Assembly (NCBI RefSeq): GCF_000423425.1
Contig: NZ_AUHY01000016.1
Span: forward strand, 1-50,021
Reading direction: 5' to 3'
DNA: 50,021 nucleotides
Source of the DNA: Meiothermus rufus DSM 22234
Lineage (GTDB): Bacteria; Deinococcota; Deinococci; Deinococcales; Thermaceae
Shown: in pieces, positions 12,747 through 15,126 of the stretch
Numbering within the stretch: the stretch's first letter is position 1
Layout of the letters: each line of letters opens with the position of its first letter
Position numbers and translations under genes: made by a program
Notes under the pieces: model-generated
Databases searched by the model: none
Told to the model about the DNA's origin: nothing
Seen by the model: the letters and a program-made list of their open reading frames with translations, nothing else

Positions 12747-13181
12747 ATGGGTCTTTTAGATGAACTATACAAAGAGATCATCCTGCGCCACTACAAGTCC
12801 CCCCGCAACTTTGGCGAGCTGCCGGGGGCCAACCTGCGGGTAATGGGCGATAACCCCTCCTGTGGCGATCAGGTGGAACTTTTTGTGCTGACCGATGGGA
12901 CGCGCATAGCCGATGTGCGCTTTCGTGGGCAGGGGTGTGCTATCTCCCAAGCCTCGGCCTCGCTGATGACCGAGCTGGTCAAGGGCAAGCCCTGGACGGA
13001 AGCCCTGGCACTAAAGCAGCAGTTCAAGGCCGTGGTGGTGGATGGGGCCGCCCCCACCCCGGCCCTGGGCGATCTGGCCGCCTTGGCTGGGGTGCACAAG
13101 CTAGCAGCCCGGGTTAAGTGCGCTACCCTGGCCTGGAACGCCCTCGAGCAGGCCGCGCGGGAGGCGGGAGTGCTAGATTGA
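12747..13181 (+). CDS. sufU: Fe-S cluster assembly scaffold/sulfur acceptor SufU
   Basis: A 144-aa NifU/IscU-like protein of the SufU type. Three cysteines in conserved positions (NPSCGD near residue 38, GQGCAIS near 66, RVKCATLAW near 126) with aspartate in NPSCGD are the zinc/sulfur-accepting set. The insertion between the second and third cysteines is typical of SufU rather than IscU. The partner desulfurase SufS is not adjacent. The 3' end overlaps the convergent folE2 by 9 nt. Confidence 0.92.
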
Positions 13182-14204
13182 GATAGGGTTGGCAAAATCG
13201 CTGAAGTCGGCGCGGAAACCCCCGGGCACCCCCTTGACGATGACCGAGACGGCGTCGTGGGAGTGCAGGCTCTCGAGGTGGGCGCAGGCTACCTGGAAGT
13301 CGCGGATGCGCCCATCGGTGTTGAGCTCCTGGTAAAGCAGCCGGGCGGCGTCCTCTACGAACTTAACGTAGGCCCCATTCAGCTCGGCAAAGGCCTGTTC
13401 GTCTTCCCGTTTGACCATCACCTGGGTTTCGGTTTTCAGCGCCTGGCGAGCGTGCTGGATGAGGTCTTCTAGGTGCAGGCGGGCCCCTGGGGCTACCTCA
13501 ACCCGGAGGCGGGCTTTGGAGCGCTGGCTGTGGGGGATGGCGTAGACCCCCCGGGTGTCGCGGGCGTGCTCGGCTAGCTCAGCCGAGCAGGGGCAGGCCG
13601 AGGAGTAGACAAAGTCCAGCGTGATGAAGCGGCGGATGGGCTTAGCGCCTTCGGCCAGAGCCTCATAGCTGGCGTCGTAAAACTGGTAACCCTCCAGCCC
13701 CGAGCGCAGCGAGGGAACCAGGGTGGGATAGCTGAAGCTCACCTTGATCCGGGCATCCAGGCTTTCCAGCTCGCGCTGGTAGTCGCGCACCAGGTGGGTC
13801 AGGGTCTCCAGGGTAAAGACCTCATCCTTGCGGGTATAAAAGGTGCGGATAATCCGGCTCATGTTGATGCCCTTGAGGTTGGCCTCGAGCGAGACTGTTC
13901 CGGTGATCCGGGCCTCGAGGGTCAGGGCCTCGCCGGTGGGGGTAGCGAACCTGAGCGGCAGCCGAAAACCACAGATGCCGACCTGCTGGATGGCCACATT
14001 AGCCCCCTCTACCGAGTCCACGGTCTCGGTCATGTCGGGTAGGCTAGCCCTGTAGGCTTCATCGGGCTGGAAATGGGCGTCGTAGTGGCGGGTGAGGATG
14101 GGTTCGGCTCCGTCGGTATTGCGGAAGAGATAGGCTTTTTTGCTGCTCTTTTTTTCTAGGAATGCGGGTGGTTCGAGGGTTTGCTTGTTGTCGTAGCTAA
14201 GCAA
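13173..14204 (-). CDS. folE2: GTP cyclohydrolase IB (FolE2)
   Basis: A 343-aa member of the FolE2/MptA (COG1469) family, which converts GTP to 7,8-dihydroneopterin triphosphate for folate and queuosine-type pathways and can replace zinc-dependent FolE. The metal and active-site cysteine lies in [10 protein letters not shown], followed by a conserved histidine in the [11 protein letters not shown] segment, and [15 protein letters not shown] is a family helix. The start is TTG at 14204 with Shine-Dalgarno AGGAG 6 nt upstream. The protein is somewhat longer than the usual 260-300 aa because of an N-terminal extension. A highly structured leader precedes it. Confidence 0.92.
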
Positions 14205-14219
14205 GGGCGGCTCCTTTTT

Positions 14220-14341
14220 CCGTCAGCAACCTCGAGGAGTCTGACGGTCGGTTGAGATTCGAAGGGAACATCCCCGCTCTCGCACCCGAAGCATTTCCCT
14301 TCAGCCTGCTTCAGGCGGTGGTGCGGCTTGCCCACCGCACC
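14220..14341 (-). promoter_or_regulatory. Structured 5' leader of folE2 (candidate cis-regulatory RNA)
   Basis: Four stem-loops tile almost without gaps, in mRNA order: GGTGCGG/CCGCACC (14320-14341, 7 bp); GCCTG/CAGGC with a 3-nt loop (14304-14316); GAAGGGAA/TTCCCTTC (14261-14302, 8 bp with a purine-rich interior); and CCGTCAG/CTGACGG (14220-14247, 7 bp). The last ends exactly before AAAAAGGAG, the Shine-Dalgarno of folE2, so a switch between structures could hide or free the ribosome site. It does not match, by eye, the TPP, cobalamin, FMN, SAM, preQ1, ZTP or THF-I riboswitch consensus. Confidence 0.55.
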
Positions 14342-14412
14342 CCCCCAGGATGCCACCTTGTACAAGGAGTAAACGTAAGCTAGACAATGGTTCACCGCAG
14401 AAGGAACGCGGC

Positions 14413-15126
14413 CTAAAGATTCCATCCCCCAGCTACCTCCAGCACCTGCCCGGTGAGGTAGTTGCTGGCCTCATCTACGAAGAAAAGCACCGCCCGGGCC
14501 ACCTCCTCCAGCCGGGCCAACCGCCCCATGGGAATCTGCGTTAGCGGTTGGGAAAGGGAGTTTTCTGCCACCCCTGGGGCAACCACGTTGACCGTAACAC
14601 CTTGGCCAGCCAGGCGCAGCGCCAGGGCTTTGCTGTAGAGGATGAGCCCGGTTTTGGCGATGACATAAGGGGCAATTTCCCCACGGGCTAGCAGGTGCTG
14701 TGCGCCAGCAAAGCCGAGGTTCACCACCCGCCCATACCCGGTCTGGCATAGGTAGGGCAAAGCGGCCTGGGTCAGGTAGAAAGGGGCGTTGAGGTTGGAG
14801 TCCAACATCCTGTGCCACTCCTCCAGGCTGACCTGCTCGATGGGTTTTTTGAGGTAATCGCCCACATTGTTGACCAGCACCTGCAAACCGCCGAGTTGTT
14901 CTGCGGTGCGCTGGATGAGCTGCCGGGCTGCTTCTGGCTGGGTTATGTCCGCGGCTAGGGCGATGGCCCGCACACCCCGCTGCTGTGCTTCTTGACGGGT
15001 TTGCTCGGCCTGGGTATGGCTTTGCCGGTAGTGCACGACCACGTCGAAGCCCTGCTCGGCCAAGGCCAGCACGATGGCCCGGCCAATGCCTTGGGCAGAG
15101 CCAGTGACCAAGGCTACCCGGCCCAT
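14413..15126 (-). CDS. SDR-family oxidoreductase (possible pteridine reductase-like)
   Basis: A 237-aa Rossmann-fold short-chain dehydrogenase. The cofactor motif TGSAQGIG is at residues 8-15, NNVG at 86-89, and the catalytic YVIAK has Tyr154 and Lys158. Arg in VHYRQS after the second strand suggests NADPH preference. The expected catalytic serine, 13 residues before Tyr154, is glycine (Gly141). The start at ATG 15126 is the conserved MGRVALVTG, overlapping the Nudix gene by 13 nt. Its place directly upstream of folE2 and the HYRQS sequence suggest a FolM/PTR1-type pterin reductase, but this is inference; a FabG-like role is possible. Confidence 0.8.
   Translation of the reverse strand: MGRVALVTGSAQGIGRAIVLALAEQGFDVVVHYRQSHTQAEQTRQEAQQRGVRAIALAADITQPEAARQLIQRTAEQLGGLQVLVNNVGDYLKKPIEQVSLEEWHRMLDSNLNAPFYLTQAALPYLCQTGYGRVVNLGFAGAQHLLARGEIAPYVIAKTGLILYSKALALRLAGQGVTVNVVAPGVAENSLSQPLTQIPMGRLARLEEVARAVLFFVDEASNYLTGQVLEVAGGWNL

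Follow-up and report, generated by a model that had tools for sequence, protein, structure and literature searches.

Two classes of folate riboswitch, THF-I and THF-II, are described in the cited literature (PMC6800512, PMC9881143). THF-II has been reported only from Rhizobiales and metagenomes, where it precedes folE1 (PMC6800512, PMC9881143). An asymmetric internal bulge between P1 and P2 contains its conserved bases, and the ribosome site forms the right arm of P1 (PMC6800512). Among open-access papers that mention folE2 together with riboswitches, none dealt with RNA control of folE2 according to title and abstract. The folE2 leader considered here stems from heat-loving Meiothermus, in which folE2 starts folate (vitamin B9) synthesis; it is almost certainly a real structured cis-element and probably tunes the amount of the enzyme.

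The window, i.e. the whole stretch of 50,021 nt that was analysed, belongs to a genome of 2.74 Mb, and the named relatives in the protein search were members of Meiothermus, among them M. taiwanensis, M. hypogaeus and M. luteus. The gene taken to be controlled, folE2, encodes a type IB GTP cyclohydrolase at 13173..14204 on the minus strand, with a TTG start and matches to PF02649 (231.7 bits) and to the FolE2 equivalog model NF010200 (285.5 bits, cut-off 215). Upstream on the same strand lies an SDR gene (14413..15126) for a TmpR-type dihydropteridine/dihydrofolate reductase, which scored 393.2 bits with NF012208, above the cut-off of 325; the TmpR model represents a bifunctional enzyme with both activities. 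A NUDIX hydrolase gene is found farther upstream of the SDR gene, and four tRNA genes are clustered at 1300-1768 of the window, minus strand. The 208-nt gap reported by the first-pass annotation was confirmed at 14205-14412, from the SDR stop to the folE2 TTG. Because both flanking genes are on the minus strand, the leader is to be read on that strand, and all features below are given accordingly. A plus-strand reading was rejected in view of the gene orientation and a free-energy z of -0.01.

The gap had been annotated as densely folded, with four perfect stems in a row. All four were present at exactly the positions assigned to them, at 14335-14341/14320-14326 (7 bp), 14312-14316/14304-14308 (5 bp), 14295-14302/14261-14268 (8 bp) and 14241-14247/14220-14226 (7 bp), and the last of them does stand directly before the Shine-Dalgarno sequence, ending 3 nt ahead of AAGGAG (14211-14216). 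The density of folding did not hold up, as the folding energy was unremarkable (z -1.1 to -1.5): the minus strand of the gap gave a z of -1.13, with 24 of 200 shuffles folding equally well, and the predicted transcript gave -1.46 (18/200). Such values are what fortuitous folding of a GC-rich gap would yield. However, the energy z-score is uninformative as evidence here because the pseudoknot described below is not nested, and chance folding, to which we attach next to no credence, is refuted by covariation far above that of shuffled, slid and tree-aware controls.

Eighteen genomes of the genus Meiothermus were compared. Sixteen carry folE2, and the leader was kept in all 16 of them. Alignment A1 comprised 15 leaders from promoter through start, and A5 added a sixteenth whose contig begins inside the leader. 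In A5, 95.3% of pair cells were standard pairs, compared with at most 51% in slid controls and a match in 0 of 500 shuffles, and 14 of the 24 pairs had changes on both sides. Since pair counts can mislead among kin sequences, a tree-aware simulation was made, in which the tree was built from folE2 coding sequences and 3000 simulated alignments kept the number of changes per column but scattered them randomly over its branches. Across the whole alignment, the strongest 8-bp helix was the pseudoknot helix S1, which the null matched in 0 of 3000 simulations; taken singly, S1 was reached in 1/3000, S2 in 0/3000 and hairpin C in 0/3000. An R-scape-like all-pairs test, underpowered at n=16, brought no single pair to E 0.05 because the sequences were few (16 for the pseudoknot, from one genus, and 3 for hairpin C from a second family), and the helix-level scan was therefore used. 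Neither comparative result that the first-pass annotation had named as refuting it, a lack of covarying pairs in orthologous leaders or an absence of the stems from close relatives, was obtained.

Three of the four stems were conserved across relatives. The 5-bp stem was not: it was 68.8% paired in the 16-genome alignment, 419 of 500 shuffles did as well, and it was discarded as part of the conserved structure. Its 5' strand coincides in part with that of the 9-bp helix S1, and in the alignment reading it pairs instead with TGCTTCGGG, so that S1 crosses the 8-bp stem S2. In place of four tandem hairpins, the core consists of an H-type pseudoknot and a hairpin with a conserved loop, hairpin C.

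The predicted leader RNA spans 14205..14349, with a putative start at about 14350 and a match of 111.4 bits to the longer model R2 at 14202-14349. It is ordered as a variable hairpin H1, the H-type pseudoknot, hairpin C, the Shine-Dalgarno sequence and the TTG start. H1 (14320..14341) keeps its location with variable sequence, according to per-sequence folds of most of the 15 leaders. The pseudoknot in the window has an S1 of 9 bp, an L1 of 4 nt, an S2 of 8 bp, an L2 of 1 nt and an L3 of 16 nt. S1 joins CCTGAAGCA (14307..14315) to TGCTTCGGG (14285..14293), with 89.6% paired and 8/9 pairs changing on both sides; S2 joins GAAGGGAA (14295..14302) to TTCCCTTC (14261..14268), with 99.2% paired and 3/8 pairs changing on both sides. 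Sequence is thus kept in S2 and variable in S1. The unpaired loops of the pseudoknot drift (L3 mean 0.46, zero invariant columns), leaving it without a conserved unpaired core, a feature that most aptamers have. Hairpin C (14220..14247; 49.7 bits with its own model, R1) has a 7-bp stem and the 14-nt loop ACTCCTCGAGGTTG (14227-14240), of which 13 of 14 columns are invariant in the genus, with the nearly invariant sequence ACUNCNCGAGGUUG. The loop segment shares CTCGAGGTTGC with the 3' coding ends of the SDR gene in relatives (L144, L146); this sharing may be chance, as strings similar to CTCGAGGTTGC are found repeatedly in these genomes, or may hint at the origin of hairpin C. All six positions of the Shine-Dalgarno AAGGAG (14211..14216) are invariant in A1, and GGAG is invariant in A5. 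A conserved CCCTTG (14202..14207) overlaps the start codon, and pairing of its CCTT with the Shine-Dalgarno AAGG was predicted in many folds. The start codon can also fold back onto the folE2 coding sequence as a hairpin (TTGCTT...AAGCAA, 14181-14204), which is kept in most relatives and could add to masking of the start site.

The distribution of the element was examined with R1 and R2 in 111 Deinococcota genomes. R1 reached 38 bits or more at 19 sites, one per folE2 genome and each a folE2 leader, with everything else at or below 24.7 bits; R2 returned 16 sites of 97.5-148.2 bits, all before folE2. Neither model placed the element before any other gene in these genomes. Exact loop C matches in two genomes (G001 and G062) fall in or over coding sequence. 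The scan of genome contigs covered Deinococcota alone, with other phyla lightly sampled: hairpin C was absent from seven plasmid-borne folE2 loci of Proteobacteria and from 80 folE2 loci on viral contigs, and the 71 viral matches to the loop C pattern were without the stem, scoring 23.9 bits at best. Viral contigs hold at least 240 stretches encoding FolE2 relatives, the best 80 of which (L171-L250) are 50-56% identical to the FolE2 of the window, none with hairpin C. Three genomes from a second family (L017-L019) have hairpin C before folE2, with 9-bp stems that differ yet still pair and with the same loop, so that its stem covaries with this family included; the pseudoknot is lacking there. 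In the same three loci, part of loop C (GAGGU) recurs in the Shine-Dalgarno region, and an ACC(C) tract in between could pair with either copy, a possible decoy switch.

Upstream of the leader, a promoter-like conserved block (14350..14385) was delineated by alignment, by pattern search and by comparison with folE1 upstream regions. It reads GTCTAG, 17 nt, TACAAG and then GTGGCAT, and includes TTACGTTTA (14370-14378). The -10-like TACAAG lies at 14357-14362 with GTCTAG 17 nt upstream, a fit to a promoter that the consensus promoter scan did not report and that would place the RNA start near 14350. Wherever the contig of a folE2-bearing Meiothermus genome extends over that region, folE2 is preceded by the block TTACGTTNA-N6-GTAYA. 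The block recurs with one mismatch in G001, 82 bases upstream of the folE1 match, and it probably precedes folE1 in G017 too, where one contig ends with the block and a different contig begins with folE1; the version in G020 and G023 is more divergent. A GTCCARNYTACGTTCAAGTTTTGTATAAAGG-like block was likewise seen ahead of the GTP cyclohydrolase gene, folE1 or folE2 alike (14350-14385 in the window; L144, L146, L147, L148). Among 61 genomes, folE1 and folE2 were mutually exclusive and never occurred together, and in G001, G018, G020, G022 and G023 folE1 comes after the apparent end of the same SDR gene. Because the SDR gene and the upstream block are the same, folE1 and folE2 occupy one operon slot. 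The common block suggests that folE2 replaced folE1 in place behind the SDR gene with the promoter retained, a promoter that would then be common with the ancestral folE1 gene. The structured leader occurs with folE2 only and not with folE1: within one operon slot, the gene was exchanged, the promoter block was kept and the RNA leader is found with folE2 only.

Such a shared block raises the alternative that the DNA, through a transcription factor or the promoter itself, regulates the gene, and that the RNA structures, sensing nothing, only lend the mRNA stability or expose its start site. Its presence before folE2 in every covered genome, and before folE1 in G001 and probably G017, would fit this account. 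Nevertheless, it leaves the covarying helices and the invariant loop downstream unexplained, and hairpin C is found in the second family without the block; we regard regulation by the DNA block as improbable. Metal control, which had been suggested for folE2, is now weakened: folE2-bearing genomes have no GTP cyclohydrolase I other than FolE2, and a role as a low-zinc backup was rejected since folE1 is absent from them. Zinc shortage is a less likely signal than a pterin or folate, given that the sole GTP cyclohydrolase I is encoded beside a pterin/folate reductase. With the leader tied to folE2 alone, the locus offers a well-delimited system in which control of the folate pathway can be tested in Deinococcota.

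Taken as a whole, we lean towards reading the leader as an element that controls folE2 in cis, probably at translation, as feedback on pterin/folate synthesis, and that is recognised through loop C. Transcription would start near 14350, and the RNA would fold into H1, the S1/S2 pseudoknot and hairpin C, a fold backed by covariation. Loop C is invariant, the pseudoknot loops drift and the second family has hairpin C without the pseudoknot, which together suggest that loop C is the part recognised and that the pseudoknot is an added platform. The loop may recognise a product of the pathway, most likely a pterin or folate, as in a feedback riboswitch. The output is probably on folE2 translation: no intrinsic terminator was found on the minus strand, and terminator-based output was dropped. 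A leader peptide was likewise rejected, since the leaders have neither a start nor a reading frame in common. On opening of the pseudoknot, the freed S2 3' strand (UUCCCUUC) could serve as an alternative partner that masks the Shine-Dalgarno sequence; this pairing (-3.4 to -6.3 kcal/mol as a duplex) would account for the constant sequence of S2 beside a varying S1. Alternatively, the conserved CCUU over the start codon may mask the Shine-Dalgarno AAGG. The predicted Shine-Dalgarno pairings are weak, and the masking balance would be tipped by a ligand or protein bound to loop C. That the leader is a pterin/folate riboswitch proper is a possibility to which we give somewhat less than even weight. 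Still more tentative is a new FolE2-specific riboswitch class for pterin or folate, in which the 14-nt apical loop would be a sensor common to two families and the H-type pseudoknot an expression platform added in Meiothermus.

The small size of loop C makes a protein site equally conceivable. Hairpin C would then be an operator at which translation is repressed by an RNA-binding protein, for which FolE2 itself and a PyrR-like regulator are conceivable, and the pseudoknot would be a scaffold or stability element. Protein operators usually look like this, a rigid stem close to the ribosome site and capped by one invariant loop; conservation is limited to loop C, and its GAGGUU recalls the loop consensus of PyrR-binding RNA, ARUCCNGNGAGGYU. 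The PyrR version in particular is contradicted, however, by separate PyrR-like sites elsewhere in the same genomes, which score 31-44 bits with RF00515, whereas a search of 18 genomes at E up to 1 listed no RF00515 match for the folE2 leader. The resemblance to PyrR-binding RNA (RF00515), a stem with a conserved loop containing GAGGYU, was accordingly rejected as the identity of the leader, and a protein operator in general seems to us rather unlikely next to the feedback element recognised through loop C.

Among catalogued RNAs, the leader had no gathering-score match in Rfam 15, THF-I included, and a cmscan of 19 leaders at E up to 10 gave scattered unrelated matches, none to THF-I. It thus fits no catalogued family, as the first-pass annotation had supposed; its proposal of an undescribed cis-regulatory RNA for folE2 stands on a conserved, covarying leader without an Rfam match, but not in its four-stem architecture. 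The leader has the general marks of a candidate riboswitch, namely a conserved covarying structure and a consistent gene association (folE2 in 19/19). Like preQ1-II and SAM-II, it places an H-type pseudoknot in a translational leader; the pseudoknots of those riboswitches include the ribosome site and conserved unpaired bases, whereas that of the folE2 leader has neither and matches nothing in Rfam. It resembles THF-I as a folate-gene leader containing a pseudoknot, but differs in an H-type pseudoknot without a conserved unpaired core and in the lack of a cmscan match. With THF-II, the folE motif, it shares a short RNA before a GTP cyclohydrolase gene, near the ribosome site, with proposed translational control (PMC6800512, PMC9881143). 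Compared by the description of THF-II, in contrast, the conserved unpaired bases of this leader lie in the apical loop of hairpin C and not in a bulge, AAGGAG follows the hairpin C stem after 3 nt and thus stands outside it, a pseudoknot stands upstream, and the gene and phylum are folE2 and Deinococcota.
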